64,000 bases of DNA from the NCBI RefSeq assembly GCF_036785885.1, contig NC_092323.1, forward strand, positions 2,954,501 to 3,018,500, in the 5' to 3' direction. Positions within the stretch are counted from its first letter, which is position 1. Every line of letters begins with the position of its first letter. Under the pieces are notes generated by a model. It was given only the letters and a program-made list of their open reading frames with translations. It ran no database searches and had not been told where the DNA came from. Source of the DNA: Coffea arabica. Its lineage: Eukaryota > Streptophyta > Magnoliopsida > Gentianales > Rubiaceae. Positions 2,792-52,463 of this stretch are shown in pieces. The translations under genes and the position numbers were made by a program.

Positions 2792-5617
2792 CCGAGGCAA
2801 AGATTGTGGCTAAGATCGTTTGACCATATGAGAGATTGGAACGGAGCGGTGGCAAAAGTGGGCGGTTCAAACACGCTTGGGATGCTACGGCTGTATTAAG
2901 GAAGCATGGGTGGAAAAAATGCACATACGAGAGACGGAGTCAGGAAGAGGGTTTGAATTCTAAGGATGGAAATTTTCTCGGTGAACGAGGCCGAACTGCG
3001 AGTGTTTGAAAAAAAAAAAATGAGACGCAAGTTCACATGAGAGAGAGCGTGAGCTTTTACTTTCAAGTCCAGTCTAAAGTACGTGGTTGACCGATTAATG
3101 TTACTACCGCTGTTATTATGTGGTAATGAAATTTTGAGAGAGGACTTTTTTTTTTTTTATCTAAAGCTGAGAAACTCAGACTTTTTGAATTAATAAACCT
3201 AATCCCCGAACAACCTTTAAAAGGACTTTTTGAGAGAGGACTTGATGAGATTGAGTTTGGTATGATTCGGTCCAATCGTTGTATTTTTTAATATTATTTA
3301 ATGTATAATTACGTTACATTATTATATTCAAAAGTAAAAGTGATGTAATAGAATAAAATATTTAACATATATTTAGTACAGCATTATCATGTATTTTTAT
3401 ACCAAAACTTTAAACATGTACAATGATTGGACGAATCTGCACAAAATACAGGTCTGTTTGTCTAAAACTTTACTGTAACTTACTGTAGAAATTTTTTTAA
3501 AAAAATTTTGAAGTGTGTACATTTTTAAATATTTTGTAGTGTATAGTTTACAATTTTTGAAAATTTTTTTGAAATTATTATAATTAAAATTTTTAAAAAA
3601 CTTGTAACAGATAAACTTGACAAAAGACTTGCCTGCCAAACAAGATCGCAGTTTCACGGAGTCTTTGTCGGAAAATTCAATGGGGAGCTTCTTGCCTTGC
3701 GGCTACATTAGCATTTATTTTGACTATTAACCACTCCATTGAATTGAATACTTATTAGACTCTCTTTCGTTTGGCCTACATTTGACTATTTGTTTGATCA
3801 AGTCACCCAATTCAAGTTGAAATGTAGTACAAGCTCACCAACCAGGAGACTTGCCAATCCAAGAGAAATGGTAAGAATGGGAAGGAAGAAAAGTTGTCAT
3901 TTCCTAACAAGAAAAGAAAAGAAAAAAAAAAGGCCGAAACATCGCAATGAACTTACCACATTCGATTTGTACTTTTTTCTAGTCGAATACTGGTCAAAGG
4001 TACTTGGGAATTTCCTCAAATTAATCAATTAATTCCCAGAGTTTAAATTTTGTTCTTCCCCATCCCCGCCAGTCCTTTCTGGGCAGGTTATATTTCTATA
4101 CTGAAAATCGAAATATGTTTATTTATATATAGCCCCAAGAAAAAAGGGAAATAATTCCTAGTTAGCCATACGAATCACAAGAGACCCTATAGACAATTGT
4201 AGGATCTGTCCGAAGTTACGCTGAATATCAGATCCGATGGTGTTGAAACCAAAAAAATTGTCCTAAAGACAAATTGTTCAAAAGTGTAAGGTGGTACAAA
4301 TAAGTTTTTCTCGTTCAGCAGAAAATTCAAGCTGGGCATTCTTTTCCAATTTTTTCTCAGAATAACGCAGGCTAAATATTTTGATGTTTTGGGATCATGT
4401 AAGAAGGCCATCCCTATGAATTGGATTCATCCACAAATGGGTAAAAACTACTAAACCCATGAATTGAATCACATGATTCAGCCCACGGAAGGATGGCGAA
4501 CTACTGGCCCAACGGGTGTCAGACCTAATAGTCTGACACCGGAACCAAACTTGCTGGAAGAACATGACAAATGAAGAAATAATTGGTTGTTAATGCTCTT
4601 TACACAACTTTCTTTAGATTTTTTTTTTTTACACACTCTTTAAATGTTTTGCAGGCCATACGTAAACACGTAGAGTAACTGAACTGCTATAAAAAAAAAA
4701 GTGTATTACGAAGTCTTTTGGAACGTATAAAATATCACTCGCCTTTGTAAAATATGCAACTGGCTCAGATGACACTACTATTAATTTAAGTCACGGTTTG
4801 TCTAACGGGTGTTTTATGGATACTGAGGCGTTGAGTTTTTAGAAATATATAATTAATTAAAAATATATATATAAATATAAGAAAATTAATTTTAAAAAAA
4901 TATATAAATATAAGAAAAAATAGTACTTGTTACTGTATGTGTACAAGGGATGAGTTAAATGGAACGTAGCTGTGTTAATTAGTGCCTTGAGCAAAGTAAG
5001 CAGTAATTTAGTGAAAACACACGTAGACAATTACGAATGAATGCCGCCCAATCTGACGCCTACATCTGCTGAGTGACTCTGGGCATCCAAAGCGTTAGGT
5101 GGGAGGAGGGTCAGCCCTGCTTTCTGACTTTTTTGAGCACCGCCCATCTTCTTCTCCCGGAGTTGAAGAATTCTATAGTGAATCTTCAGACACCAATCAT
5201 TTCGCTCGAGCAGGACACAAACCAACAATCATTGTATAAAATTACAGTCATTTGAGTTCAATAAATTAAAAAAAAAAAAATTCTTAATGGGGTGTGTACA
5301 TATATATATATATAATTATTATTTTTCTTACATTTGTATTCTTTCTTTAATTATAATTGTTACATTTCTTTATATTTATATAATTTTTAAATTATTTTAT
5401 TTTTTTAAATTTAACACTTAAAATATATATTAACGGTGCCAAATGCGAGAGTAATACATGACAAACACGCACCTACCTAGTGAACTAGTAATAATAACAC
5501 TTGCAAGAAAAAAATAAAAGAGAAACATAGGTTGGCGACCGTTGTCAGACGAGGATTGAGGCCCCCTAGCACCATAAGCAATATATACTAATATATATAG
5601 TTCGGTGTATATATATA

Positions 5618-11014: not shown

Positions 11015-12124
11015 TCACATGCCTTCAGCTCTCCGCATCCATGGCAAATCTGCAGCGAAAGAAACATCTCCTGATGGGGTGTCTGCAGAACTTGCAAATT
11101 TGCCCTTCCTAGGCCATAGCCAGATCTTGGAAACAGAATAGCTATCAGTTTTTGCCCCAATGTCAATCTTCTTTCCTGCCCCATCCTCACTGACTGGAGG
11201 ATTGCTTTGTCCTCTGTCTTTCAGAAGGCTCACATCCCGACCAATATGGTCATGGCTCAAGGCCACCCTGAGGTGGGAATCGCCGACCACGTATTGGTAT
11301 GAACCCAGTGAGTAACATCTGCGGGCATCCAAGTTACTGCTACTAGTCTCTCCTCCTGCCTCCCCTTCTTCACCACTCAATTTTCTGAACTTGCCAAGCC
11401 TAACGGGAAAGACACCCTTTTCTACAGCAACTTCCTCAATTTCAACCGCCTTCTGGCGAGTTGAGATTCCATTCTCAGTGCTAACAGGGTATCCATCGTC
11501 TTCCCTTAGATCATCAAAATCATATACTGGGTTTTCAATAGAGAATCCCGGATTGAAAAGAGTCCCTCTACAAAGAGGACATGTTGAGTTGGATAGGAGC
11601 CAAGTGTCTATACAATTGATATGAAAGGCATGGCTGCACATTGGAAGCAATCTCAATTGATCCTTCTCAGAAAACTCACACAAACAAACAGCACAATCAA
11701 ACGGCTCCTTAGCACCCACAATCTCTTTGTACACGAAGACCGGTAACGCATCAATGAAAGATTGATCTAGACCCGAATCATGTAGATGGAAGAGTTGTTG
11801 CAACTGTCTTTGAAGGGCATCAGAGGTGGAAACTTCAGGGTATCGGCTAGACTGAGAAGAGGCTGAGGAAGATGGATGTTTGATAAGAAATCGAACCAGC
11901 AAGTGCAGAAGACCAGAAATGAAAAAGAGAACAGCTAAAATTACAATGATAAATAGAACAGCAGGACTAATCCTAGTTCCAGATGATGAAGATGTAGGAT
12001 GACTTGATTCTTTATGAAAATTATCACCAGTAACATAAGGAGGAGACGAAGATGAGAGGGGGAAAGGAGGTGGATATGTCAAGATACCATCTTTCTGATT
12101 AAGTTGATGCTGAATCCAAGACAT
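11015..12124 (-). CDS. ATL46: ATL-family RING-H2 E3 ubiquitin ligase (ATL46-like)
   Basis: An intronless gene of 369 residues from the Met at 12124. An in-frame Met at 12217 would add 31 residues. Order of parts: a Pro/Ser-rich N-terminus, one membrane helix (about residues 53-81), the ATL-specific GLD box (GLDQSFIDALPVF, about 118-130), then a canonical RING-H2 at about 144-185. The RING spacing is C-x2-C-x15-C-x-H-x2-H-x2-C-x10-C-x2-C, with the Pro before the third Cys pair and the Trp after the sixth ligand. A Ser-rich variable tail ends in DVSFAADLPWM. ATL proteins are membrane-anchored ligases, and many respond rapidly to elicitors. Assignment to the ATL46/ATL13 branch rests on length, on the start MSWIQHQLNQKDG and on neighbours. 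The family is certain; the exact orthologue is less so. Confidence 0.9.
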   Translation of the reverse strand: MSWIQHQLNQKDGILTYPPPFPLSSSSPPYVTGDNFHKESSHPTSSSSGTRISPAVLFIIVILAVLFFISGLLHLLVRFLIKHPSSSASSQSSRYPEVSTSDALQRQLQQLFHLHDSGLDQSFIDALPVFVYKEIVGAKEPFDCAVCLCEFSEKDQLRLLPMCSHAFHINCIDTWLLSNSTCPLCRGTLFNPGFSIENPVYDFDDLREDDGYPVSTENGISTRQKAVEIEEVAVEKGVFPVRLGKFRKLSGEEGEAGGETSSSNLDARRCYSLGSYQYVVGDSHLRVALSHDHIGRDVSLLKDRGQSNPPVSEDGAGKKIDIGAKTDSYSVSKIWLWPRKGKFASSADTPSGDVSFAADLPWMRRAEGM

Positions 12125-14447
12125 TTTCAAATGGGTATGCTGAGAAAGCCATCTCTGACGTCTTGTATCTGACATTGAACAGATCAACTTGATACACTCA
12201 GAAGCCATCTCGTCCACACTCAGTACACTAGAATTAATCTCATTTTCTGCTGAAGCAAACCAAAAGCAAGCATCCCTTTTTCGTTTTTTCTCCTCTCACT
12301 TCAACAAAGATAAAAACTTTTGACTGAACCCCACAATTTCAATGCCAACTTTAGCTCTCAGATTTGAGCAAATAATACCGAAGGTGGCAATGGTAACTTG
12401 TAGTGGTACTAAAAAGCAGCAATATTTATTGCTTTCAGATTGTAAAACCATATGTCACTAATTGATTGAGCAATTATAATGGGGAAACACGACGACACGA
12501 AGAGATTTACAAAAAGAGCAGCAGCTGATTGAAGCTTTCTGACCTCCTCGAATCCGCAAGTATCGTCAGCACTAATGAAATGAAGTCTTTATAACCCACT
12601 TCTTGCGCAGCAAAAACCCTAAACTCGCAGCCTCTGGCTCTCCATTAGGGATCTCGACACCCACTTTTTACATCAGGTAAAGAGGAAAAATGGATTTTAA
12701 AAATCCTCTCTCCCTCTCTTTCTCTCTCTCTCTCTATTCCTCTAGTCTCTTTCTACATTGACACCGCTGACTGATAAGCATATATACTTTATTAGTGTAC
12801 TCGTGGTATGTGAAATAAATAAAAATAGGAAGTTGGATATTTTTCACTTTTTTCTCAGTATTTTTTGTGTTGGGTAAGGAAGGATAGCCATGGAAGCCGG
12901 AAAATAGGCCCTGACAAACGGTAAATAGTTGCTGGCTTATTGCCAGAGTGAGGACTGAGGAGCTCTTGTTCTCTCTGTTTTTTCTCTTTTTTTTTTTTTT
13001 AAAAAAAATCTTTTCTCTTTTTGTAATTTCTGATCTTTGTCGACGTGCGGAATAAAGTATCAAAAAAGGAGCAACTATAACGTCAAAAAAGATAAAGGGC
13101 GAAAGATTTGGAAAAAAAAAAAAACAATTTTTCTGAATATCTAACGCGCCAAATTAGAGCGTGACAACTTCATAAACGACAGTGTCCGTACACCCAAAGT
13201 ATGGGCCTCGACTGGAGTTACCCGTCCAGGCCCATATAGTTGGGCTAATTACCGCCACTCTCTAGGGCGAAAATTAATGTATTGATGATAGAAGGCAACA
13301 TATACGGGAGCGTACCTTCCAGGTTTTTCTGTTATTATTATTATTTTTTGGAATCAAGTACCGAGTTATCACTTAATTTTGGAAGTATCAAACGGTTTAA
13401 ATATATTAAGATTTGAATTCATTAAATTTAAGTGCTGAACTGAGTTGTCATAAGTTACGAGAGGGACTCAAAGAGGAGATGGGAAAATATGGTACTCATT
13501 ATGGTTTGGGATGAAAAAAAATGTTTCGTAAAATTCAGCAGCTACTAGCACATATTACTAGAGAATTCTTATGCTGTCTTCTTGTTCGATTGTGATGGTG
13601 CTTTGTCAATCACACTTATCCTTTGCCCGTCAAAATGCTCTGTTTATCGAGCACCACCCAATTTGCAATCAGAATTCTATCTTGCAAGACTTACTGGCTT
13701 GTTGACAGTTGCAAGACCACAAACCCAAAATGGACGATTATCTTTGGTATTGGACAAGATGATGCACTACTCGGGTGGGGATAATGAAAAGAGTGGAGAG
13801 GTGATTGGATGTACGTGACAATAAACCTGGTGAAAGTGGAGCCACCGTCAAGAAAGAAAGTGAACAAAGATTTGTTAGTCGTAAACAAACATATGTGACT
13901 TTTTGCTCCGCTGCTTTTCCTTTCACTAATGTGTAAGTTCCTAGAAATTTGGTTTTTACGTGTCACTTTGTTTCTTTTTGTGGGGTTGGTCACCGAAGGT
14001 AATCCAAAGATGGAGCGCAGCTGACAAGACAAGAAGAGTTACTAGTAAAACAGACAGGCCATAGATAGATAATGCTAGGAGCTGGCAAGAGAAAATAGTA
14101 CAGGAAATTTCATTAATTTTTTTTTCTTTTTTGAACTTTATGATGAGTGGCGCCGTGGAGTAGGAAACAAGAAAAACTTGCATTAATGAATTCCCAAACT
14201 CGTAAGGTTTTACTCCGGAACAATCAACAGTGCAAGCAAGGTTCAAAAAGGGAATTTTCCTCTCTAGTCGAGTCGAGCTGCAACTTGAAGTGCTTAATTC
14301 GTAGTACTTCATATGCAACAGGGTAACGGTATGCCGTCTAACTCAAACAGTGATTCTACATTCATCAAAGAAATACTACTGGCATGGTACTTTGCTGTCT
14401 CTGCCTGGATGTTCCTGGAATTTGACAGCGGCAATTCTCTGGATCAA
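12125..14447. other. Intergenic: RING gene promoter/leader and LRR-kinase 3' flank
   Basis: 12125-12700 is the leader and promoter of the minus-strand RING gene, with a (CT)n run near 12705-12735. About 13190-13260 carries GGGCC/GGCCC motifs (GTATGGGCCTCG and AGGCCCATATAG), which resemble TCP or site-II elements. I could not support coding exons at 13560-14350. The open frames there are short and have no recognisable motif. Confidence 0.45.
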
Positions 14448-16785
14448 TTATGGCGATCTCTCAAAGACTGAGGTGCTAATCAATGCAGAAGCATCGTCCA
14501 TGGATTTGTCTTCCTCCTCTTTGAGTGTGCTTACCTTGGCAGCAATTTCATTCATGCTAGGACGGGCTTCCTGGGACCGATTAACACATTTAATAGCAAT
14601 CTGTAGCAAGTTAACCATCCTCGCTTCGCTAGCTCCTTCCCGAATCAATGTCCTATCAAATACTTCAACCGTCCACTCTTCTCTAACCACGGACACAACC
14701 CAGCTCGCCAGGTCCAGTCCATCACTCTGGACTAGCTTTCCTGTCAGCATCTCCAGCAGAATTACCCCAAATGCGTATACATCCGCCCTGAATATTGCCC
14801 TGTTGAGATGTTCTCCGTTTCCTTGGTAGGAATTATCACTGCCAGCTAATGAAGGATCTTGACTGTCCAACACCAGCCCATATTCGCTTATGTACGGCTC
14901 CATGTTCTGGGTCAACAGTACATTTGATGATTTCAGGTTACCATGAGCAATCCCGTCTTCTCGAAGCTCTTGATGCATGAAAGCTAAGCCGTCAGCTACG
15001 CTAGCAGCGACGTCCAGTCTAGTGCTCCAGTCGAAGGTTCGGCCCATCTGCGTTCCTGAAATTTTAAGGGAACATTATCAAAGCATACAAACTCAGCGCC
15101 ATCCTAGTGAATACAGATGGAATCTGCAATTGTTTAGTGTATGATGTTTCTTTATCTTTTCTTCATCTTCTTTTATCCTTTATTGCTTGGAAAAGAATTG
15201 CAGTACAGTACTTTTCTTAAAGATTTAGTAAGTTCCTTACAAGCAACTTGTCTAGGAATGTTCTTTACACTTGTGATCTGTTCTCTTGGGACTTGGGAGT
15301 TTCTAATTAATACAGGCACCAATTTCCATCCATTATGAAGGGCCAAATACACATAAGCACTTTTCTGAATCGTTGGGTGATGTAATAAGATCTTATAAGA
15401 CTTCAAGTAAGTGCGCAAAAAGTAGCCACATGAGATTTAATGGGGAAAAGGAAAATTGCAAGAAAATTACCATGGAGAAGATTGAAAAGACTCCCATGTT
15501 GCAGATATTCATACACCAGGAGCTTTTCTTGTTTGGAAGAATAGAAAGCGAGGGCAGGCAATATATTTGGATGTTTTACGCGGTCTAATCTCCGCATCCT
15601 CTGCTTGAAATCATAGCTAGATATTGTCCAATCCTTGATCCTTTTTACGGCCAAAATCATGCCCATTTCTTCGGAGAAAACCTTGTAGACGCTACCGTGT
15701 TTTCCTCTTCCCAGCAACTCAGCAGGAGCCTTGAGTAAATTCTCAAACCTTATCCCGCTCACCTCAGGGCTACTGAGAACTATTAGTGATGACGGTACCA
15801 CTGCGCTTTCACCTGAAGCAGTCGAGTAGTCAGACTTGCTGACTGGACCAGCCTTGAAGTTGCTCGGCGTGTAAATTTGCTTAGTGATGCTATCATCAAC
15901 TGAAGCTACTCTAGAATCTGCTTCGACCTTAGCTTCAGCTTTCTTGCACCTTCTGCAGAGAAAGACGATGGTGGCAAGCAACACAGTCAAGCCTAGCAAG
16001 AAATTGCCCAAGAACGTCAGAATCTCATCTTTTGAGTAGCTCCCCTTTGGCTTGTCGGATGAATCAGAGGACGCTGATGGGCAGCTATTTGGAAGCGGAG
16101 GGCCACATATTTGATCATTTTTTGTGAAGCTACTCGCGGGGAAGCGAACGCCACCACTCGGTATAGGTCCACTAAAATTGTTATTAGAAACATTAAATGT
16201 GTGGAAATTGGAAAATTCAAAACTGGGAAGAAACCCAGACAGCTGATTATTTTGAGCAGAGAACTCTATCAAACCAGATATCCGGGACAAATCAGGTAGA
16301 GTGCCAGAGAAGTTATTCGATGATATGTCAAGTACTTTGAGATTATTCAATCTCAGGAACGAGTCAGGAAGGCTGCCATTGAAGCGGTTTCCTCCAAGGT
16401 ACAGGCGTGTGAGTTGTCTGCAGTTGGCGATCTCCGCCAGGCTTTCTCCCTGGAGGTTGTTATCCTTGAGACTCATGACAGTTAGGCTAGCGGCTATAGA
16501 TTGCACGTCGCAGAGGAAACTGGCATTAAGATTTCCTGAAAGTTTTAAGCCATCAAGGGTGATATTCCTCAGAGAGTTCCTGTTATCACAGGCGACACCA
16601 TCCCAATGGTCCCTGCAAGGATAAGAGGTTAAATTCCATGGTGAAGCCTGATTTGGGGAAGCGCTTTCTGTGAGCCCCGTGATAAGATTACTCAATGCTG
16701 CTCTAAGCTCTTCTTCGTCTGATTTTATTGAATGGAAGTGGAGAAAGAATGAAAACAGGAGTACCCAGATGAAAATTTTGTTCAT
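14448..16785 (-). CDS. LRR receptor-like pseudokinase (LRR-III, PRK-like)
   Basis: Two exons: 16785-15471 and 15055-14448, with a GT-AG intron of 415 bp. They join at a Gly codon after FNLLH to give 640 residues. Order: signal peptide (MNKIFIWVLLFSFF), LRR N-cap (PCRDHWDGVACD), about five LRRs (for example LKVLDISSNNFSGTLPDL), a Ser-rich juxtamembrane part, a membrane helix (FLLGLTVLLATIVFL) with a basic stop-transfer CRRCKK, then a kinase-like domain. The Gly loop (GRGKHGSVYK) and subdomain II Lys (LAVKRI) remain. The HRD loop reads HGNLKSSN and DFG reads EYG, so catalytic Asp residues are lost. Such LRR-III pseudokinases act as scaffolds or co-receptors. In-frame Mets at 16803 and 16908 are alternative starts, but 16785 places the signal peptide first. 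Confidence 0.93.
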
Positions 16786-17889
16786 GTTAGATGATACTGA
16801 CATGATGAAGCCGGGAATTGTAATCAAGAATCCGGGTTGAGTTGAGGCTAGAGATTTGACATGATTTGCTGTGTGTGTGGGTGTTTTGGCAAGAGGAGGG
16901 AATTCCAATGCTCCATCAGTCTTTTTTAACTTCTGTTATCACAGCCATTTGGCGGCATTCACAATGGCAACTCGAGTGTCATTTGGCTTTGATTGACGAA
17001 GTCAATCCACCAGTTCCCTCACGGAACCCAATCGGATGCCGGCGAAGGGACACTGGTCTCCGTTTTTTTTTCCAGGCTCCCACAAAGGGAAGATTTTGTC
17101 TTTTACACTGTCGTCAAGCTCCAGCTGGACAGTTTTTAACACCAAAAACAATTGCAAATGAACCCATGATTACATTATGGCGAAGATTTTATAAAAATTG
17201 CGTGGCCATTATGGACAAAAGGCAGCTTTTGGATCCCAGACTTGCTGAGACGAGTAGCAAATCCTGTTAATTTCCTGTTTTCTTTGTCTCGTACTTCACT
17301 ATTTAAGAGACGAGCACTTATATTACAAATAGTTAAATACTAGGTCCGCATCACACATCTTAGATTACAGTTAGAACGCGGCCCAGCTTTAGGTTTACAG
17401 CATGAAAAAGTCTTGCCCTGTAAAAACCCATCTGCATATTAAATTGATAGCCATAAGATAATTGGAATTAACCCTGGCCAGCATCCAGTGAACTCACGAC
17501 CAATCTGACCTTCATTTTCTCCCACATTTCATCACCAGTTCATACAAAGTCTCAATCCTTAAAGCTACGAAATGTTATTCTCATGCTGAGCATATGAAAA
17601 ATTTCAAATGTTTGAATGAAAAACCAGCATATCAGCATCATAAATTAAATTTTACATTAATGGTCCAACCACATCAGAGATCTTTGCAACTCCATTGGTA
17701 GCATGCAATAGCTCATACAAACAAATAGGCAACAAACAGACCTGCTCATCAGCAAAAAGTGATAAACTTGGGTCGTAACAAGTTTTTTACACGATAGATC
17801 TAATCCTCCCAGAATAAAAGATCTCTAAGGGAAAAGGCAAAGGCAAAAGCCATTTGGCAGTCACATGACATAGAAGATTATTCAAAATA
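16786..17889. other. Intergenic: kinase promoter and HIG1 gene 3' flank
   Basis: About 1.1 kb lies between the start of the minus-strand pseudokinase and the stop of the minus-strand HIG1 gene. It contains the kinase promoter and the HIG1 3' UTR. I see no transposon ends and no coding exon. Confidence 0.5.
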
Positions 17890-38426: not shown

Positions 38427-38436
38427 GATTCTAGTA
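38427..38436 (+). repeat. Target-site duplication, left
   Basis: GATTCTAGTA directly precedes the left terminal repeat. The same 10 bases follow the right terminal repeat at 43593-43602 in the same orientation. Confidence 0.9.
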
Positions 38437-38933
38437 GGATACCTTTATGGTGGGAACCTGCCTATGGTAGGAATGGTGGCAGGGAGCGACACGTGTTGGG
38501 GGCAAAACGGTCCAAACGGAGACGTTAAAGTGATGGTGAGCGCGTGGAGAGGAAATGAAGCAGACAGCGTGCGGAATGAAGCAAACAAAGCACACAGAGT
38601 TCCGTACTATCGTCCTGGGTTGGGACAGGATGTCTTATTGCAGGTTAGAAGGAGAGGCATTTATTGTATTTGCAAATGTACCCATTACCGCAGCAAAAAT
38701 GCTGCAAATGCCTTGGACAAAAAATGTGCGTAAAGAAGGTTCAGAAATTTGAAGAACGAAAGAATGATTAGCGCACAGCAGTTATGAAAAAAAACTTATG
38801 CGAAGCAGTTTTTTTTTGTTATTTGAAATAACAGAAAAGTGTTGTATTCATGATTAAAATTGAGTACGTTACTTAGTGTGGAGTTTTAATATACTTGGAT
38901 AAATACTCGATCGTATGTGAATAAATTAGTTTT

Positions 38934-38974
38934 TTTACACAAAAAATTTATGCATATATAAATTTTTTGTGTAA
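38934..38974 (+). repeat. 18-bp perfect hairpin
   Basis: TTTACACAAAAAATTTAT pairs with its exact complement after a short loop. It lies within the left half of the foldback element. Confidence 0.8.
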
Positions 38975-39599
38975 AAGTTTTATAGGAAAGTAACCGAAGA
39001 ATTTTGTCCGCGCCGCAGAAAAAATGGACAAGTCAAAAAACTTGGTCTGAAAGGGAAAGATACAGGTTAATAGCATTATTGTTTAAAGTTCTGAACAAAG
39101 AGATATATTTATGGTGGTTAAATGGCGGTACTTTGACATTTAGTAAAGGAAAATCATAGAAAGCAGTCCATTTACGGAAAAAAGGTGTCGGTAATAAAAA
39201 TACCAGCTCTCAACGGCTTTGTTATCAGACCTCCAAAGAATCAGCAAAGTCCCAATAGTTGAGATACTAATTTTTTGCAATTTATGCGGAATTAAATTGT
39301 TTGTTGCAATGTAAACATATTAATGAAAATTAGTGATTGGAAAGCACTTAAGTCAAAAGGATTTGTGTAAAAGGGAAAGGAAATGCCGAAATGTACAGGG
39401 CTTGTATTTCACGATCGAAGGACTAGAGTGCTGTTTTTGAAAAGTACCCAGAAAAGTATGTAAGCCAAGCGGAACCGAATGTTTGTTAATTAAAATACCA
39501 AACCTTTGATTGTGTTTGAAATGTTATCCATTGGCATGGTAAAGTACCAAGTTTGCATGAAACACCTCATCTCTAAAACCGCTTTTGGACGTTTAAAAA

Positions 39600-40430
39600 A
39601 TGTAAATGGTGGATTAAGCAAAATAAACCGGTTTTACAATAAAACACTTGCTCTTTATGGCTTTCCCGCATTATAGGAACAAAGTACCCAATTTTTGCAT
39701 AAAAAAAAGTAGGTTTTGGATAAAATGAAAAAAAAAACCCGTTTGCAATAACACAGCAGCTATTGACGGCTTTTTTCCGTAATACGAACAAAGTACCCAT
39801 ATTTGCATAAACCGCTTTATTTAGGAAATTAAATGAAATAATTCCATTTTGTCGTAAAACACCATCTCTTTATGGCTTTGCACTAGTATAAGAACAGAGT
39901 ACGCTTTGTTTGCATAACGGCTGGTTATTTATCCGGAAAAAAAAACCAGCCTGTTTTTCAATAAAACAGTAGCTGTTGATGGCTTTCGTCCGTTAATGGA
40001 ACACAGTGTCCGTGTTTCGACATACCATATTGTTTTTGGGATAAAAATATAATAAATCCATTTTGTCGTAAAACACTAGCTTTTTATGGCTTATCCAGCA
40101 TTATAAGAATAGAGTAGCCTTTTAATTTTTTTTTGCATAACACAATTTATTTATCGGATAAAAACAAAATTAACACCGGTGTTCAGTCGAACATTAGCTT
40201 TTTACGACTTTGCTCCATTATAAGAACAGAGAACCCCGTTTTCCATTTGAAAATGTATGTGGCGGAGAAAGTAAAATAAACCGATTTCGAATAAAACAGT
40301 AACTGTTTATAGCTTATAAGAACTGAGTACCCGTTGTAGGGGTGGAAAATTTTGTTTACGGGAACAAAATTTTAATCAGGTTTGCAATAAAACACCCTGT
40401 ATTTACGGTATTCGTGCAATAAATTTTGTG
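39600..40430 (+). repeat. Degenerate tandem array, about 108-bp units in two alternating types
   Basis: About eight units share an anchor like AATAAAACAnnAGCTnTTTATGGC, then a CATTATAAGAACAGAGTACCC-like stretch. Anchors fall near 39636, 39745, 39852, 39960, 40067, 40187, 40290 and 40386, giving a spacing of roughly 96-120 bp. Units at 39852 and 40067 share a CCATTTTGTCGTAAAACAC start. Those at 39745 and 39960 share a GCAGCTATTGACGGC/GTAGCTGTTGATGGC start. This implies a two-unit higher-order repeat of about 215 bp. Confidence 0.75.
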
Positions 40431-41285
40431 AATTGTAGTAAGTATATTTAAATTTCTAAATTTGAATTATGTATTTTAATATGTATATTTGAATTATATT
40501 TTAATATATTTCAATGATGTATTTGAATAGGTATATTTCAATTATGTATATTATATATATTATATCAATGTGAATATATTTAGTTCAATCATGTATAATA
40601 TTATATATATTATATGAATTGAAATAAATAATATATATTTATAGAAATACATTTATTTATATATAAATTAATAAATATATTTACTAAAATTTGTTTCATA
40701 ATATATATTAATATGTATATTATACATAAATTAAATTCAATATTAATGTGTATTATATATTTTATACATTTGTAATATTATATATTTATACATACAGATT
40801 ACAAATTTTTTATTTTATTTGTAGTATATTTTTATATATTTATAATATATTTGCATAAATATTAGATAATATAATATATAATATATTACACATTTATATA
40901 AATGTACATTTATACATAATATATAAATATTTATGTATATTTATAATAGACATTTATATTATGTATAATATCTAATATAATACATTTATACATTTACATT
41001 AATATACAAAATATTAATTTTACCTTTATACATAATATTAATGCATGTATACATTTATATTAATTATATTAATACATTTGTACATAATATTAATATATAT
41101 TTATAATATATTAATTTATACATTTTTATAATATTGATTTATAATTTATATGTTTTTAATAATATACACTTATACATGTAAATGTACATTTATATTATGT
41201 ATTATATACATTTATACATTTATATTAATATACATAATATTAATTATACATTTATACATAATATTAACACGTATATACATTTATA
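40430..41285. repeat. Almost pure A/T core
   Basis: About 0.85 kb made nearly entirely of TATA, ATTTATA and TACATTTATA words with scattered single C or G. It lies at the middle of the foldback element, where the loop would be. Such DNA unwinds easily and often causes assembly gaps. Confidence 0.85.
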
Positions 41286-41400
41286 TACTCTGTTCTTGTA
41301 ATAGATAAAAGCCATAAAAAGCTGCTGTTTTATGGGAAAATGGGTACTCTGTTCTTGTAATACATAAAAGCCATAAAGAGCTGGTGTTTTATTGGATGAC
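41285..41400 (-). repeat. Inverted copies of the tandem unit
   Basis: Two partial units read on the minus strand as CAGCTCTTTATGGCTTTTAT, then CAAGAACAGAGTACCC. They are opposite in orientation to the 39600-40430 array, as expected for the other arm of a palindrome. Confidence 0.75.
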
Positions 41401-42838
41401 AGATTTTTTTATTCCGATACATTATTTTGTTTGTGGCAAAAGAGCTGTTCAAGAACTGCTATTTCACCAAAAATATTATTTTACGAAACCATTGGATAAC
41501 AGTTCAAATACTTTCCCAAATTTGGTATTTTAAATAATGAATACTGTGATTTGAAATACCAAGTCTGTGAATGTGTTTCAACTGTTATTCATTGATATCG
41601 TAAAGTATCATTTTTTCATCAAATTTCATCTCTTTAAAACCCATTATTCCGAATACAACTTCTTTAACCCGATTAAATTTTAATGTACTTGTTTTCGAAT
41701 ACAACCCCACCTCTTTATGGCTTTATCTATTACAACAACATACTATCCATTTTCCCATAAACAAATTTATTAATTGGATGAAATAGAAATAAAACCGTTT
41801 TCCAATAATATACTGGGTATTTCAAATTTATTGGAAAATGGGTATAGTTTTATTTTATGTCATCAATAAATTTGTTTATGGAAAAAATGGGTGTTAAGGT
41901 GTTGGTATTTCGTGGGATAACGATGCTTTAGCATATCAATGGATATCAGTTAAAACACATTCACATATTGGGTATTTTAAATAATCAAAATTGGTTCCAT
42001 TTTAATTACATATTTTTTACGGTGTTTTTCACAAACATCACTGCAGTATTTTGAACGTCAAATACAGGTACATTACATATCTGCTATTCTTTCCCCTAAC
42101 ACACCAATCAAATTGACTTTTGTGCTTTGTCTTACACATTTTTCATTTTTTTTTTGTCGAAACTCAAAAAGAATTTTAAAACTTATATAAACCGAATAAA
42201 TTACCACATTAATTATTGCCACTTTCCTCATACATCGGACGCCTGATAACAAAGCGGTGAAGAGTTGGCATTTTTATTAATGAAAACTTTGCCTTCAAAT
42301 TTATGACTTTGCTTCATTATATGATTAAAGTATCCTGCTTTTTGGTATTGCCCACCAATTCATGTTTTGTGACGGTGAATTCAAAATTTTTTAACATCGT
42401 ATTTTCATTAATCAGTCTTTTTTTCGTACTGTCTTCAAATTTAATGAAAAATTTAGTTCCACGGTGTTTGGGAGCAAATTCTAAACTACATGTGCATAAT
42501 CATAAATATTTTTGTAATTGCTTAGTATATTTATGTCATGGGTATTTGTTGTTGGTATGTTATTATTAATTTTATTACAAAACTATAGTTTCACAATTTT
42601 TAAAAATGTATTAAAGCAGTGGGGAAACACTGCACATTAAACGCAGCAATTGGAGGGGAAAAAGGCCTGCATCCGCATACGTCTTGTTTTGTTTATCTGC
42701 ACGGGTGTTACCACTGCAAGATAACAGAGCGTCAACTCCTCATTTTACAAATACACCTGTTACGGGTCTGCCTACGTTACGATTGCTCAAAGGTTTCCTA
42801 CCATAAAGGTAGTGTTTGGAGCCGTTGTCTCGAAACTA

Positions 42839-43172
42839 CACCCTCCGTCCCACATTTACTGTTCAAATTTGTTTTTCGCACGGTCTAAGAAAAAGTAGTT
42901 AATTTTGTTCGAACAATCAATTTAAGTAACTTTTTTCCTAAAATACCATCACATTAATTACATTACAACTTTATGGAAACTTCAATTAATGGTAAAAAAA
43001 GAATCAACTCTCATTATATAAAGTGGGTATATAGTAACAACAACTTACATTTAATAAGGCTATTTTACGAAAATTTAAATACAACTAAATTTTTCAATTC
43101 AATTGAAAAATGTACTAGAATTTGGGACAGACGCAAGAGCAAAATTGGACTATCAAAGTACGATGGAGGGAG
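42839..43172. mobile_element. Stowaway-like MITE, family A copy 3 (nested)
   Basis: 334 bp with decayed ends CACCCTCCGTCCCACATT and GATGGAGGGAG, and TA flanks (42837-42838 and 43173-43174). It is the most diverged of the three family A copies and sits inside the right arm of the foldback element, so it arrived after that element. Confidence 0.85.
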
Positions 43173-43592
43173 TAGTACGGATACCTCTCCTCTGCTTTTC
43201 CTTCTTCCAAGTTATTATCCCGCTCGCATGCGCGGTTTACATTTATTATTTGTTCAAACTTCGGTTCGTTCTTTACGCATAATTTTTTGCCCAGGGCCTT
43301 GGCAGCATTTTCCCCTTGCTAACGGGTAGATTTGCAAATGTATAAATGAGCAGTGGTTCTGAGTTGCAATTACACTGCCCCGGCCCACCAAACTGCGTTG
43401 GAAAACGCAAACGGCTGTACGAACCTCTGCTGTTAACTTGCAGCAGCGGACAACATGTTAACGTTGCATCTCCACGCGCGATTCCACGGCTAAACGTCTC
43501 CGTCTGCAATCTATCCACCTGTAACACGTGTCGGCCTCTGGAGGCCTTCCTACCATAGGCACGGTCAACCCGTTCTCACCGTAAAGGTATCC

Positions 43593-43602
43593 GATTCTAG
43601 TA
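43593..43602 (+). repeat. Target-site duplication, right
   Basis: GATTCTAGTA, identical to 38427-38436, directly follows the right terminal repeat of the foldback element. Confidence 0.9.
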
Positions 43603-44283: not shown

Positions 44284-47200
44284 ATGGCAGCAGAGAGGGA
44301 ATACTGCTGTCACAAACAAGTGGTACCGTTGGTAGCCATGGTGAGCATGGAGTGCACCAACGTCGGACTGAACACGCTGTTCAAGGCGGCCACCGTCAAA
44401 GGGATGAGCCATCATGTCTTTATCGTTTACTCTTATGCTCTTGCTGCTGCCTTGCTTCTCCTTCCTTCGACTTTCTTCTTCATCAACCGGTCTCTCATCT
44501 CCATCTCCATCTCCCCACCTTGTCCTCACTCTTATCAGTTTTTAGTTAATAATTTAATACTACTGCTTGGTACCAAGTTTCTAACATGCTTCGTAATTGA
44601 TCGATGATCAATTGAATTGCTTCTAGTCGTAGCATCTACTTTTTCCGGTCTCTCTTTATTTGATTGATCTCGATGCACAGCTTTTTGTTTCTCTAATTGT
44701 TTTTTTTCAATTTGGTCAGATCAAATTCAAGACTGGATCTTCCTCCACTGAAATTCTCCATCCTCTCTAAGATTTTCCTGCTCGGACTGATTGGGTACAT
44801 CTTTCTTTTTTTTCTTTTTAAATTTGAATTTCACATTTCAATTTCCTATTCACATTAAAGAGACTGATTGAAGGTTTATCTGAATGCATTTCCTAATTCG
44901 TTGCATTATCAGACTCTAAAATCTTTTGCTTGTATTTGTCGTTATGGAAGTTAGGTGCACATCGCAGATAATGGGATACACAGGCATAAATTATAGTTCT
45001 CCCACGCTTGCTTCCGCCATCAGCAACCTCGTTCCAGCTTTCACTTTCATACTTGCCATCCTTTTCAGGTCCGGTCCGGTCCCTTTCATTTTAAAAAAAA
45101 ACCTTCTCCACTTTAATGTATTTTAGACTCGTAGTAGTAGTTGCATTTTTATTAGAGTGCCAACTAAAACAATAAATAAGTACATGATGGGTGTAAATTT
45201 ATAACCTGTAAAATGGGAATAAAAAAACCAAGAAAACAAGAAAACGCACACCCAAAAAGTTAAGGAAAAAAAAAACAGCAACAACTGAATAATTGGCTCA
45301 GTTTGGATTAGCTATTTTTTAGGGTGTTTTAAAAAAATTTTACTGTAGCAGTGTATATGAAAAATTTTACTATAAATTTTTTTGAAGTATTTAATATATT
45401 GTATGAATAAGATGTTTTTTGAATTCTTGTATATTAATGTAGCATTGTATTTAAAAAATTTGTTTTTGAAAAAATTTGTCAATCCAAACGGAGCCTTGCG
45501 AATAGCCCAAGAGGCTGTTGGTATCACCAAGACATTTAAATCTTGGTGAAGGTGGGAGGTCAAACAATCCAAACGGAGCCTTGCGAATAGCCCAAGAGAC
45601 TGTTGGTATCACCAGAACATTTAAATTTTGGTGGGAGTGAGAGGTCACCTTGTTCTTCCATCTTGTCGCTTAATTGTGGCTTCCTCCGACAGAAAAATTC
45701 CGTCGGCTTTTCCTCCTCTTAAACTAGACTAAAGTAGGTTATGCAAATGTTATCGTTACGATAAAAAAAATAAAAATAAAAAATTCATCTTTCTTTCTTT
45801 GCCATCTCCTCAATGGTTCTGCGTTTTTCGCAAGAAGGACCCAGACCCCCGTACAAATCTTTGTTGTCTTGACCTCCCCCATATGTATATTCTCATTTTC
45901 GCTATGAACTTTTCATAGCTTACAGAGTCACAGAATCACACTCTCTTGGTTCGCTTTTAGAATATCTTGAACAGACTGGAATTAGAAATACTACTACGAT
46001 GTACCAGTAGTAATGTATCTTCCATTCGGTACGTTTGAGAAATTCCTGTAACTCGATATCTTAGTTCCAAATATAAGCACCCTGGAAATTCTTAGCCTGC
46101 TTTATCTGGCGTTAGGGTAAAATTTGTCAGCACTGCAGCATCTGCCAATTTCTCTAGACCATCATCCCATTGTTGATCCCGCCCCAACTGATCAGAAACT
46201 CCATGGCTGTAAATCTTTTCTTGGTGCTATCCATGGGCGTGATTCATTTTATGCTGCCGAAGTGTTCCTAGTCCGAGACATAACATTATGATAAGAGTCG
46301 TAATCTACAGAATGTTGCAATCTGACTTGAGGCTGTGTCTGTGCAGGATGGAAAAGTTAGCATTTAGAAGTTCAAGCAGTCGGGCAAAGGTCTTGGGCAC
46401 CGTATTATCCATTTCAGGTGCATTTGTGGTGACCCTATACAATGGTCCAAGGATCAAACTAAGAAATACAATACCCATTCCCCAGCATCTCCATACAGCT
46501 CAATCCAACTGGAAGCTCGGTGGCTTGTTTCTCACAGCTGAATATATTTTGGTCCCCATGTGGTACATCGTTCAGGTCCGAGATTCTGATTCTTGATGAC
46601 TCTCTCGTACAATTGTCTATGTACCCTGAATTGCTTCACCCAAGAACAACGAAATTATATTGTATTATTTTCTTCTTTTTGGGTTAACACCAAATTACTA
46701 CTACAAGGTTTTCAAGTGCAGTATTGTATTGTCCAAATTTACACCATCTCAGGCTCAAATTATGAAGGAATACCCGGCAGAGATAACAGTAGTCTTCTTC
46801 TACAACTTGTTTGTCAGCATTTTGGCTGCATTTGCGGGCATCTTCATGGAACCGGACCTGAGCAGATGGAAAATTAGGCCTAACATGGCATTGGCCTCCA
46901 TAGTCTGCTCGGTGAGTAATAAGAGAAATTTATTGCTTTGCTCTTTTTATCCTTTGTGGATGTTAGTGCATATCGTAAAATTACGAGAGACTTAACTTAT
47001 AGACACAAGTACTTTCCCGGGATATGGACAGGGAATCTTTGGTTCTTTCTTGAACAACACAATTCACACTTGGGCCTTGCGGTTGAAGGGCCCCGTCTAT
47101 GTTGCAATGTTCAAACCATTATCCATCGTAATTGCCGTTGCAATGGGAGTCATCATCCTCGGTGATGCTCTGTATTTAGGAAGGTATGCAAAACAACTCA

Positions 47201-47871: not shown

Positions 47872-50800
47872 TCATGTCTTGAGATCATCAGACATCGGCG
47901 AAGGTATACAATGCATCGCTAGAATGTCAGCTGTTGCTGCTTTTGCAGATTTAGTCTGGAGAACCACAATCTGCATACAATAAAAAGCCAATGAGGTCCA
48001 TCCACATTAAATAATAATAGGTAAGCACAAAGGCCTCATGCTCCCGATAGTAGCGTGAAACTTGAAATCGAAATAATTTACACAAATTTTCAAGTTCTAA
48101 CCCCTGCTGCATAAAGAAGGGACGGAAGCACAGACAGAGAGAGTATGTGTGTGTCAGAAAGAGAGAGAACCTGGTCATATTCAAGATCGAACTTCAAAAA
48201 TTCTTCATCACAGGCTTCCACCATCGCAGCCAAGATTTTCAGGTTTTTGACGGGTTTTCCGTTGAAAGCCATAACCTATACCAGTCATTGTCAACTAATT
48301 AAGTTCAGAAGTTTGCTTCATTATAGTTTTGAGCCCCTAGCTATAACCAACCTGTGTGTTGACTATTTCCTCATAACCAATGTTGATATCAGCGACAAGC
48401 ACCTGATACACATTTCACAAGGCACCAATCTTTGAGTCCGATCAAAAACAATTTGCAAATGTAGTTTGTATGCAAGAAAGTAAAGATAATTTTACCTGAG
48501 AAACAAGAACAACTTGTTCGTCAACTGACTGTGCCATACCATGCAGATGTTTGTCCAACAATTTAACAGGAGCTTCAAATTCGTATTCTTTACCATACTG
48601 AAAAGAAAGCAACAAAACAAATTTATCAAGGTAGATAAAGGAAAATTCTAAATTTGGATAGTTTCAGAAACAAGGGAGACAAATAACATAGCGAGGATGT
48701 CCGATATTAAATTAGCCACACACCTCTGAACGTAAATATGGGACAGAAACAGCTGTAAAGACAAATCCACCAACAATGTAATAAGAAGGTGGTTTCTCCC
48801 TTATGTGGGCTGGAATAAGCCTTTTATGAGTTGCCAGCTTTATACTGAACTCGAACATCACAGAGTTCCTGAGCACTTTGACTGCAGCACTATCTCCGGT
48901 GTATTTTTGCGAGACAAGATAACTAAAACCAATGCGCTCTCCATGCCTAAAAGGAACTGAAAAGGAAGAGAATGCACACCTAGAGTTAGGAAGGATCAAC
49001 TACAAGTTGTGGAGTAGCCAACATGTACAACAAAAATAGGATTGCAATCTAGAATTTTGTGGAAAAGACGAAGAAGGCAATGGTTGATGGAACCAATTCA
49101 CTTTTGAATTATTCCTCCAAGCAGGTTAGTAAAATGCCACAAAACAAGGAAATGAGTTCCAGATAAAGCGCAATGCTAATAAATATCTGGAGAGACAGAA
49201 AAGAGAATAGCATGTAAAGGACTTGACACCACATAAGAATGAATGCTCTGAGTTATTAAAAAGAAAAGAACAGGAAACCAGTCAAGCTACCCTCAGAAAA
49301 GACTAGAAGTCTCTAAACAACACTAGTAGTTCTCAAAAATGTTGTATTTAGCATGTGTAAAAGCTGTCACCTCTTGAAACCATGATTCTGCAACAATACT
49401 GAGAACTGCAGAATTCCAGCATAGTTCATCTGGATATACATACATATTAACTGCTCACATATGTGAAGCTATGCTTGACTAAAATAAACACTCAAATGCT
49501 TATCCAAACACTTCAAGAAAAGGACATGAGAAGAAAAATAACACAGCAAACTTTATGCAGTACATTATATACTACTACAAAAAAGACCGTCTCATGAGTT
49601 GGATTGGTCATTATTTGCAAAAAAAAAAAAAAATTCTTGCGTCACAAACACATTTTCCAACCACCTATTTTATTTTCCCAACTATCCTTTTATCTCATAT
49701 ACATCACATCACAAAAAGTGCTAAACTAATTATTCCAAAAATTTTTCGAAATAATCTTCTATCCAAACACACTCTACTATTCAAGTTTAGATGATGCAAA
49801 TAAAAATGACTGGCAAATTTCCAACTCAATCTTCTGCAAACAATAGGCCACTGAAAGATCATAGCTAATGAAACTAAAGTTTTGGCATCTATTAGTCATG
49901 ACAATAGGTGGTAATTAAGGCTTGCCTGTTCCATCATTTGCAATATTCACCCCATCAAAGCTGATAATGACATCAGAAGGCTTCAAAACATGAGATTCTG
50001 GAGCAGTGGGCTCAATTCTTCGTATGCGTACACCCTTTTGGTTAGATGTCATGCCCATTGCCATGCGCAGATCAGGATTTTCCATCTTCTGCCACTCAAC
50101 CCCAAGCACAGGAAATCCTGGAATGTTGTCAATGTCCATAATGAGGCAAAGAGAAGCAATTACCTCACAGGCTCTGGAAAAGACAGCAATATAATATATG
50201 AAACATAGAATAACATTTTTGGACCTGCTACCTGTATATGCCCCATTCTTTTGGTAATCTTGAATGAAATGCATGATTACTGGTGTTGGTATCACGTAAC
50301 CAATATTCTCGACATCCTCATATTTGAGAGACTGAAATGCAATACCCACGCATTTGCCCTTATCACTAAAGGCAGGGCCACCTGAATTACCAGAGTTTAT
50401 GGCAGCATCAATCTGTAAAATCACCCTATCAGAAATTACAACAAGAAAAACCATAAAACAACATAACCAACAGAAGTTTCAGAATCCTGGAGTGAGGAGG
50501 AACGAAGAGGTTGAATCATGACCTGCAGTCCAAGAAGCTCAGTAGACCCATGAACGTAAGAAAGAATTTCCAAGCGCGAAACAACTCCACTTGTCACTGA
50601 GATTGTATCGCCCCCTATAGGGTAACCGACAACAGTCACAGCATCTTGCAATGCAGGTAAATCTCCAAATTCAACTGGTGTAACTCCTTCCCAGAATTCA
50701 TCATCGCTCACAGTCAGCATAGCTACCTCATCACAATTCAAAGCACAGGTAAGTCCCAAAAGGAATTGGAAATCCAACTACATTAGTCCCTCCCCCCGAA

Positions 50801-51636
50801 TGGGCTTTTCCTTGCCTCTTTTTTTCAATCAACAATCATGCAAGCTAAGTTAAATTTGTCGTCGAGATTACTCTTCTAAATCAAGAAACTGAATAATTGT
50901 AATTAAAAGCTGATGCTCCAATAAAGAATGCCAACCAATGATGAATCACCTTCACAGTAGCTAGTTAGTGCACATATGCAATTGCGAATTTGGTAACACA
51001 AAATTCTCCCCCCAAACACAGAATAAATAAACAAGAAATACCGATGTCGCATTCGTTGCCAATAGCAAGGACGGTAGCCAAGTATTTAGTATCAGAACCG
51101 CGTTTCTTAAGCTTGACTTGAGTGTGATGCTCCACAGAGTGAGCATTGGTGAGGACTCTCCGGCCTCCAATGATGAACCCACTGCTGCTGGAGCTGTACT
51201 GCCGCTTCCTCTGCCATGGCAGCGAGAAATTCGGCTCAGTGTGCACGCAGAAGACCTTCACCACAGCGTCCATCGACGGCACGGCCTTAGCCGCCGAGTG
51301 GACCACCTCCGCCGCATGCCTGGGGTCGCCGGTGGGAGCAGCCGCGAAAGCCAGAAACTCCCCTTCCCCTCCGCCGCCATTGATGTGAGCATGATCAGGC
51401 AACCTCGAGCCCCGTCTCTCCGGTGATGCTCCACCATCGTTCTTGGGGTCCTCAACTTGTTTCTTGGGACGGCCGCGGCCCCGGCGTAGGGTAGGAGGTT
51501 CTTGGCTGGTTGCTTCGGAAGTAGGGTTTGGAGGTATTCCGCCGTCGTACACGGCGGCGGTGGAAGTAGTGGTGTTGGCGTTCTGAGCAATGGAATTTTT
51601 GGGTTTTCGGCCTCTTTTCCTCTTTAAGCCTGCCAT
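47872..51636 (-). CDS. DEG9: DEG9-type nuclear serine protease
   Basis: Nine exons: 51636-51042, 50722-50523, 50412-50232, 50117-49926, 48956-48724, 48597-48496, 48402-48352, 48275-48171, 47970-47872. They join in frame to 585 residues. It is an ATP-independent Deg/HtrA protease; Arabidopsis DEG9 is nuclear/nucleolar and degrades the cytokinin regulator ARR4. The triad is His166 ([10 protein letters not shown]), Asp197 (ECDIAML) and Ser275 ([10 protein letters not shown]), followed by a PDZ-like part ([20 protein letters not shown]) and a long conserved C-terminal region. The N-terminus is basic (KRKRGRKPK) and has an AT-hook-like RRGRGRPKK. The intron after 49926 begins with GC instead of GT; exon continuity (GT then [10 protein letters not shown]) and an AGGCAAG-like donor support this. 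Length matches the family. Confidence 0.95.
49640..49785. repeat. MITE-like fragment in DEG9 intron 4
   Basis: It is related to about 780-935 (shared CATCACATCACAAAAAGTGCT-like core and a TCTATCCAAACACAC end). It lies in the 969-bp intron between exons ending at 49926 and starting at 48956. Probably one arm of a hAT-type MITE. Confidence 0.55.
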
Positions 51637-52463
51637 TGCAACGGAAAACTACTAGCACAAGTGCAGTATAACCCAAGTCGATTTAAACCGAAAAGCTTAA
51701 TAGTACCAATCCTAATTTAGTAGTAGCAGTACTGTAATAAGAAGGTTGATGACTGATGGTGAAGAAGGGCCTTTGTTTTGGCGACGAGAAGCAGAAAAAG
51801 CTGAAAGAGGCGAAAGTACGTAATAGGATTTGGGCCCGCTAAGCCGTAGGTTAATTGGGCTCACAAATGAGTTCCTTCACTTTACCCAGACCTTAGGCCT
51901 GATGTTATGATTTGACGTGTGACTCCACCGCGTCGACCGTGGACTGGACCTTTTGACGTTTTCTGTATGGGCCTAAATTCGTTATTTATTTATATATGTC
52001 CTTCTTGTCACTATCTGGCCTCGATCTTCAGGGAATGGGGAGTGGTTGGGGGTAGGGGCGGGGAAGAGGAAGAGGGCTAATTTCTTGGATTATTGCTGAG
52101 AAAATAAAAAATCGAAACAATGTTATTCTAAGATGCGTATGATATGAAACCATACCTGTCGAGATTAGTCAGTCCGACAGGAAAGAGAACAAAAAAAATT
52201 TTTTAAGTGTTGGGCTGCTGACTGACGAAGCACAGCAACAAAGAAATATATATTTTTTCAAATGCAGTAAGTGTGACAGCAAAATTTTTTTAAAAATATG
52301 ATGGCCATTGTGCGCATCTTTGATTCCTTGTTTGCCGCTTGATTCCTTTGAGCGCATCTTTTAAATATGAATCATATGATGGCCTTTGTGGGCAGCTTCG
52401 AGGAAATTCACTTTTCCATTTCCGAAATTTCCAAGTTCTGCAGATATTATGGTATATTTTATC

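Follow-up and report, generated by a model that had tools for sequence, protein, structure and literature searches.

Is a transposase-free element that can fold back on itself a family of its own, or what is left of something larger? This question is raised by a 5,156-bp element in a window of 64,000 nucleotides from Coffea arabica (contig NC_092323.1, positions 2,954,501 to 3,018,500), the window being the whole stretch of DNA that was analyzed. A sequence-only reading had described it as a foldback-like and Mutator-like element, perhaps of an undescribed non-autonomous family.

Anatomy of the window element

The element is bordered on both sides by a perfect 10-bp duplication, GATTCTAGTA, as had been read from the letters alone (Table 1). 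It is a genuine insertion, since a related chromosome segment keeps the empty site, where the target sequence occurs once; a search for such a site had been proposed as a check. Both flanks of this site match those in the window, and the similarity carries on at window positions 44500 to 45275 (93%).

The tips of the element are GGATACCTTTATGGTGGGAA and, inverted, GGATACCTTTACGGTGAGAA. In the outer 320 and 343 bp of the two ends, 232 of 294 aligned bases are identical (79%, with gaps), and inverted similarity between the arms spans about 2 kb. The inverted-arm alignment, which covered the left 1,990 bp, scored 589.5, compared with 333 in direct orientation and 195.5 ± 19.0 (maximum, 241.5) in 30 shuffles that kept local composition, which confirms the inverted ends and the self-folding described earlier. 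From about position 39605 inward, the left arm contains direct repeats spaced 105 to 118 bp apart, which recur in inverted form in the right arm. The right arm starts with one unit of ~0.9 kb that forms tandem arrays in longer copies. Long inverted arms with internal repetition, as seen here, are a trait of foldback elements. The interior had also been called satellite-like, which is correct insofar as the arms include a few diverged repeat units and goes too far beyond this; the A/T core was recovered. No stop-to-stop ORF of at least 130 amino acids was found within the element, in agreement with the reported lack of a transposase. The internal copy of the TIR tip is also present in L009, L010, L013, L014, L017, and L020. 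A full-length tandem TIR in the right arm was considered and rejected, as the match covers 17 bp only.

Table 1. Features of the window element (positions within the window).
Feature	Position	Strand	Remarks
Left target-site duplication GATTCTAGTA	38427..38436	+	Single-copy GATTCTCGTA at empty site C13:1241089-1241098
Right target-site duplication GATTCTAGTA	43593..43602	+	
Non-autonomous Mutator-like element, 5,156 bp; very probably an internal-deletion derivative of a giant MULE	38437..43592	+	Ends as in the C6 and C10 giants
Left inverted arm	38437..40426	+	Outer ~320 bp 79% identical to right end
A/T-rich core, from left half of parent element, stops at deletion junction	~40427..41285	.	
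Internal-deletion junction	41285..41286	.	C6 giant position 3852 joined to 45652; common to C22 copy L009
Right inverted arm	41286..43592	-	97-98% identity with right ends of the two giants read
Internal TIR-tip copy	42793..42814	-	17-bp match to left tip

Related copies, giant elements, and their genes

Genome-wide, at least 42 pieces matched the left arm, including 14 with an identity of 96% or more, and at least 41 pieces matched the right arm. Pairing was carried out with 41 of the at least 42 left-arm and 40 of the at least 41 right-arm matches: 24 of these 41 had a same-strand right-arm match no more than 70 kb away, against a random expectation of 0.18. All 14 left-arm matches at 96% or more were paired, with spans of either 5.1 to 7.0 kb or 34.8 to 52.8 kb. 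Duplications of 9 to 10 bp were present at 14 of the 18 loci where both ends were read (9 perfect, 5 with one difference), a count that leaves aside L024, L025, L027, and 19 further left-arm loci; those of the C6 giant, C10 giant, C17, C13, C19, C7, and C6-outer were read by eye. Other copies with duplications of their own, for which a search had been suggested, thus exist, and their lengths are within the ~9 to 11 bp typical of the Mutator superfamily. The duplication was absent at 4 of the 18 loci (L020, a C14 locus, and a pair on C5). The 990-bp flanks of the C5 pair are identical between the two loci, and the left end of the C14 locus is rearranged.

Nine loci measured 32 to 53 kb. Two of these giants, on C6 and C10, were read from end to end, and the remaining large sizes come from paired arm matches. 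The C6 giant (46,979 bp; duplication, CTTTTTATG) and the C10 giant (39,238 bp; duplication, TTCAAGGACT), with duplications of 9 and 10 bp, are colinear at 94.8% to 97.7% identity. Nested insertions set aside, they have in common a colinear core of ~31 kb (30,846 bp in C6), in which a FAR1-MULE transposase frame is accompanied by an F-box/TPR gene and, in antisense orientation, a Ulp1-type region. The extra DNA in C6 is a 16,128-bp LTR element (4.3-kb LTRs, 99.6% alike; duplication, AATGC), and that in C10 is a 1,786-bp insert with duplication ATCACGGG, plus another 5.7 kb. One giant was itself found nested inside a short copy. For L011 and L018, termination near 12.5 kb with no TIR on the right was considered and rejected, as their right arms lie 39 to 47 kb from the left ends; what looked like an end in L018 is the border of a nested insertion.

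In a profile search, a 748-codon open frame between the ends of the giant matched the MULE domain (PF10551, E = 4e-25) and, at its N-terminus, the FAR1 domain (PF03101, E = 4e-17, residues 104 to 192), while a SWIM domain (PF04434) stayed under the cut-off (E = 0.068). A long member with a MULE-domain transposase, another trait of the Mutator superfamily, is therefore present. The Ulp1-type region, on the strand opposite to the transposase, matched PF02902 (E = 9.7e-6), with a second piece at only E = 0.073. Matches to the Pfam families Sdh_cyt, TMEM234, VG15, and an apicomplexan microprotein were all under their cut-offs and were set aside.

The order transposase, F-box gene, antisense Ulp-type ORF was found at 34 of 73 F-box loci, not all of which are independent, as several are near-identical or segmental duplicates. 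This count took in 64 transposase, 76 F-box, and 145 Ulp-type rows, with three second F-box pieces merged to give the 73 loci; Ulp-type partners, counted over all rows, numbered 64. The same order is found in a distant clade, in which the transposase is 43% to 44% identical. No F-box was found within 60 kb of 26 of the 64 transposase rows, 15 of which had a Ulp-type ORF within 40 kb, and F-box-free MULEs therefore exist too. At 5 of the 73 F-box/TPR loci, no MULE part was found within 40 to 45 kb (C15:3151202 and C16:3236010, 73% to 74%; C3:3469397 and C4:3497234, 48% to 49%; C10:26324357, 55%). Transfer may have gone from a host gene to the element, as in Pack-MULEs, or in the opposite direction. 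The transposase search scored 60 of 1,231 candidates, so that a missing neighboring transposase is no evidence of absence.

Origin of the short copies

The left 2,849 bp and the right 2,307 bp of the window element match the corresponding ends of the 39- and 47-kb elements with 97% to 99% identity. Judged by its sequence, the window element is two giant ends fused by an internal deletion, with no clear microhomology at the junction. Among six young short copies, five junction types were distinguished: the window element and the C22 copy (L009) have one in common, differing by 24 substitutions in 5,153 aligned bases and 29 gap columns, and L010, L013, L017, and L020 each have their own. Because one junction occurs at two loci (the window on C14, and C22) with different duplications, the deletion derivative itself has moved. 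The young short copies all have the same pair of diverged arms, which makes arm divergence uninformative on the age of the insertion; dating on this basis was rejected. The combination of diverged arms and an intact duplication, which had been singled out as unusual, is real, and ceases to be odd because the divergence was inherited from the parent.

It is very probable, from the observed ends, duplications, empty site, parent copies, and differing junctions, that the window element is a non-autonomous MULE formed from the two ends of a giant with a ~31-kb core, the middle of which was lost by internal deletion. This middle would have comprised the transposase, the F-box/TPR gene, and the Ulp1-type region. 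The FAR1-MULE transposase from full-length copies would recognize the TIR, and perhaps subterminal repeats, cut both ends, and insert the element at staggered cuts of 9 to 10 bp. Incomplete gap repair after excision, or end joining, could have caused the deletions, at varied points within subterminal regions rich in A/T and in repeats. The inverted arms, long and diverged as they are, would be ordinary subterminal regions of the giant, and the foldback appearance would result because little besides the arms remains. The ends, 9- to 10-bp duplications, arms, and lack of a transposase thus agree with the earlier description as Mutator-like, foldback-like, and non-autonomous; the suggested stand-alone family did not hold up, and several internal-deletion derivatives of one giant MULE take its place.

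The short forms could also stem from recombination between arm repeats instead of from abortive repair following transposition. In 4 of 5 junction types, the right breakpoint falls within the tandem units of the right arm or where these begin, and two junctions have overlaps of 6 bp and 4 bp. However, the left-hand breakpoints occupy five different positions, one junction has a filler of ~32 bases, and the right breakpoint of L010 lies outside the tandem units, the last two being as expected from end joining or template switching. We consider this route unlikely, although it is the strongest of the alternatives. A very improbable reading is that the giants are composites, in which a smaller MULE and neighboring transposons lie between two stray arms and do not form one mobile unit: although nested elements do occur in the giants and one giant is located within a short copy, two copies at separate loci, each bounded by a 9- to 10-bp duplication of its own, are colinear over ~31 kb, and the three genes recur in order and orientation at 34 of the 73 F-box loci, including the clade with 43% to 44% transposase identity. 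Least probable of all is an undescribed foldback family of independent origin, without a long parent at any stage, which fits the foldback anatomy, the lack of a long ORF, and the several short copies, but not the 97% to 99% match of both halves to the giant ends or the different junctions with the giant's interior, and which requires the giants to be later products that gained a ~26-kb middle colinearly at several loci.

Relation to known elements

The Jittery/FAR1 group (group 36, PMC6446971) has an N-terminal FAR1 and a MULE domain, as has the transposase frame of the giant. Its TIRs are given as 39 to 292 bp or none and its duplications as "not indicated/8 bp," whereas the coffee family has inverted arms of ~2 kb, duplications of 9 to 10 bp, and a core of ~31 kb. 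A C-terminal SWIM or CCHC finger is a further trait of the group; the SWIM match in the giant is weak (E = 0.068). MULEs carrying Ulp1 are known as Kaonashi or KI-MULE in Arabidopsis, and also from melon, rice, and grapevine (PMC2528002, PMC13317346); their Ulp1-type peptidase region is reverse to the transposase, likewise in the coffee giants. KI-MULEs are described there as non-TIR, in contrast to the long TIRs, F-box/TPR gene, and ~31-kb core found here. By its description, Arabidopsis FARE combines foldback-like arms with a MULE transposase, as here. No description of giant F-box MULEs was found in searches of open-access papers.

We tentatively suggest, as a possibility somewhat short of even, that flowering plants contain an old lineage of giant Mutator elements (~31 kb and more), with transposase, F-box/TPR, and antisense Ulp1-type genes in fixed order, in which both cargo genes serve the element and from which short foldback derivatives are repeatedly shed. 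VANC proteins of VANDAL MULEs counter silencing. By analogy, the cargo could serve to remove ubiquitin- or SUMO-linked silencing factors, and an element that pairs F-box with Ulp1 clearly lends itself to tests of transposon counter-defense.

A review of giant transposons (PMC6431247) states that the length of carried DNA may be limited in eukaryotic DNA transposons, that the Pack-MULEs of Jiang et al. were all 7 kb or less, and that efficacy falls above 6 kb of cargo. A ~31-kb MULE moving as a unit, with recent copies and recurring cargo, would make this size limit directly testable, and a long-armed element losing its middle offers a concrete origin route for foldback elements.

The internal TIR-tip copy in the right arm recalls multiple-TIR MULEs (PMC3310237), although the match of ~17 bp only does not make it a full tandem TIR. 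Finally, the account of the Tm1 Mutator/Foldback elements of root-knot nematodes (PMC3169594) reports, as in coffee, a transposase-coding form accompanied by short foldback forms that are non-autonomous, and 9-bp duplications and repeats within TIRs occur in both. The transposase-coding copy of Tm1, in contrast, measures 2,593 bp and has a Phantom-type transposase, and similarity between the two TIRs of an element averages 93%.

The window element and its insertion site

The window element, on chromosome C14, is an insertion. The sequence-only reading had described a foldback element with a perfect 10-bp target duplication and no transposase. The duplication is indeed perfect, and an ORF scan of the element found no ORFs of 130 aa or more. 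Its ends are inverted repeats, as claimed, with near-identical tips and inverted similarity through ~2 kb of each arm, so that nearly all of it could fold on itself. The inverted alignment of the arms scored 589.5, whereas 30 shuffles made locally gave 195.5 ± 19.0, with a maximum of 241.5; in direct orientation the arms scored 333, likewise exceeding the shuffle maximum, an excess that probably reflects repeated units and a skewed composition. The left arm contains repeats spaced at 105-118 bp, with inverted counterparts in the right arm, and the A/T core that had been noticed lies at ~40427-41285, with short irregular repeats within.

The reading had further suggested looking for an empty site, and one was found in a paralogous segment of chromosome C13, where a single GATTCTCGTA is present and both flanks align through. 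The left flank (401 bp) matched C13:1240687-1241098 at 81%, and elsewhere only a 45-base piece on C12. In the right flank (508 bp), bases 1-333 matched C13:1241089-1241370 at 70% and bases 316-486 matched C13:1241504-1241683 at 92%. The C13 matches of the two flanks have precisely the ten bases of the target in common. As a 93% match continues from window 44500-45275 to C13:1242451-1243247, the empty site is syntenic, and we infer that C13 and C14 carry duplicated (homeologous) segments.

Features of the window and the two giant copies read end to end
Feature	Window position	Length	Target duplication
Window element	38437-43592	5,156 bp	perfect GATTCTAGTA, 38427-38436 and 43593-43602
C6 inner giant		46,979 bp	9-bp CTTTTTATG
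C10 giant		39,238 bp	TTCAAGGACT
RING-H2 finger, ordinary plant-type gene piece	11018-12295
LRR receptor kinase, ordinary plant-type gene piece	15406-16935
Trypsin-like protease, ordinary plant-type gene piece	49918-51648

The window also contains a dispersed repeat of ~200 bp, SINE- or MITE-like, at ~45295-45500, for which a genome search gave 2,250 candidate positions.

Family copies and the giants

A search with the outer ends, proposed in the sequence-only reading as a way to find further copies, did reveal them, and most of those read at both ends carry 9-10-bp duplications of their own. At least 42 pieces genome-wide matched the left 354 bp of the window element, and at least 41 matched its right 400 bp, with 40 candidates scored for each. 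Arms on the same strand and at most 70 kb apart were paired, using 41 left and 40 right matches (one short second piece was omitted per side). Among the matches listed, 24 of 41 left arms paired with a right arm, against 0.18 expected by chance, as did all 14 left arms of at least 96% identity. The spans fell into classes of 5.1-7.6 kb and 32-53 kb, plus one of 19 kb. The 52.5-kb C6 "outer" pair is a 5.6-kb copy harbouring the 47-kb copy; with it set aside, the giants, long MULE copies bounded by the same arms, number nine loci among the matches listed.

Eighteen loci were read at both ends. Perfect 9-10-bp duplications were found at nine (the window element, L009, L010, L013, L017, L026, C6 inner, C10, and C6 outer), duplications with one difference at five (L028, C17, C13, C7, and C19), and none at four (L020, C14, and two C5 copies whose flanks are identical). 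Two pairs of loci in separate places, L015/L016 (C5) and L024/L025 (C15/C12), have 100% identical 990-bp flanks, and are either recent segmental duplications or assembly artefacts. At C19:9776920-9777532, two family left arms stand back to back, with ~14 bp between the tips.

The C6 inner and C10 giants are 94.8-97.7% identical and colinear except for extra DNA. In the C6 giant this is a 16,128-bp LTR retrotransposon (4.3-kb LTRs 99.6% alike; duplication AATGC), without which it measures 30,846 bp. The C10 giant has an insert of 1,786 bp, bearing the duplication ATCACGGG, and a 5.7-kb stretch in which a search for repeats found none; subtracting both leaves ~31.7 kb, including one additional right-arm unit of ~0.9 kb. 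We therefore put the mobile unit at ~31 kb rather than 47, since nested elements may predate or postdate a given move.

Internal to the left arm and A/T core of the giants is an open frame of 748 codons that has both a FAR1 and a MULE domain; it is followed on the same strand by an F-box/TPR_27 gene. As separate pieces, this gene gave TPR_27 at 1.3e-16 and 6.1e-11 and F-box-like at only 0.1; a spliced model of three open pieces gave 2.3e-33 and 1.2e-6, respectively. Beyond it, on the opposite strand, an Ulp1-type peptidase region (9.7e-6; a second piece weak, 0.073) is split among several short frames. An adjoining 264-aa ORF, for which a Pfam search gave no match, was taken to mark the Ulp-type gene because of its proximity and shared strand; we infer that ORF and peptidase region are one gene.

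Origin of the window element

The first 2,849 bp of the window element correspond to the left end of the C6 giant (98.7%) and the last 2,307 bp to its right end (98.2%), with bases 3853-45651 of the C6 copy (script coordinates) missing. L009, the C22 copy, differs from the window element by 24 substitutions over 5,153 aligned bases, with a further 29 gap columns, and has the identical junction. It occupies a different locus with its own duplication, GTTAGAGTAG; therefore, the deletion derivative itself moved. Junctions were compared among six young short copies (the window element, L009, L010, L013, L017, and L020), leaving out the older L026 and L028. The left breakpoints of L010, L013, L017, and L020 are unlike that of the window element, giving five junction types, of which two have overlaps of 6 bp and 4 bp and one a filler of ~32 bases. 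The left part of the C6 outer copy reaches ~365 bp past the junction point of the window element, and may represent a sixth type.

The transposition steps proposed here follow general knowledge of Mutator elements. A giant-encoded transposase would act in trans on the element ends, cutting with a 9-10-bp stagger, and gap fill-in would yield the target duplication. Excision of a giant, followed by incomplete copying or end joining, could leave the two ends joined. The ~107-bp repeats might, at a guess, form a binding array. The F-box and Ulp1 genes could hypothetically act against silencing, by analogy with VANDAL/VANC elements (PMC13317346).

The parent of the window element is a FAR1-type, Ulp1-carrying MULE. 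The element works like Tm1, a Mutator-type foldback element (PMC3169594). Its family departs from KI-MULEs by possessing TIRs, and its TIR and duplication lengths are unlike those tabulated for the Jittery group in PMC6446971. As neither description matches, the family is filed only to the Mutator superfamily. Literature searches confined to open-access papers found no description of giant F-box MULEs.

Recurrence of the gene order

Locus counts used all matches from the transposase, F-box, and Ulp-type ORF searches. Among the transposase matches listed, 38 of 73 F-box loci had a same-strand transposase no more than 45 kb upstream; one had a same-strand transposase downstream, and no locus had an opposite-strand one in either direction. 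At 64 of the 73 the Ulp-type ORF lay on the opposite strand, at most 40 kb downstream; other placements were downstream on the same strand (2) and upstream on the opposite (4) or same (2) strand. Both partners were present in order at 34 loci, only the transposase at 4, only the Ulp-type ORF at 30, and neither at 5, again among the matches listed. Related MULEs do not all carry the F-box, since 26 transposase matches had none within 60 kb.

In 23 of the 34 triads, identities were 50-58% for the F-box, 43-44% for the transposase, and 32-34% for the Ulp-type ORF; the spacings had medians of 16.0 and 11.5 kb. Such identities are indicative of an old lineage in which the arrangement has been retained, its distant clade, these 23 triads, being recognized here by internal ORFs.

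Old triads also occur at C9:10440032-10459552 and C10:8460715-8486762, apparently duplicated positions, suggesting that the giant lineage predates the genome duplication. On C9, F-box/TPR matches at 8988077, 9019406, and 9050735, each followed by an Ulp-type ORF, are spaced by exactly 31,329 bp and constitute a tandem array whose repeating unit has the size of a giant MULE. Finally, F-box/TPR loci on neighbouring-numbered chromosomes (C15:3151202/C16:3236010 and C3:3469397/C4:3497234), with no MULE parts found nearby among the matches listed, may be host sources of the cargo gene or domesticated copies of it. The C15/C16 loci are 73-74% identical to the window-family cargo, closer than the distant-clade cargo (50-58%).
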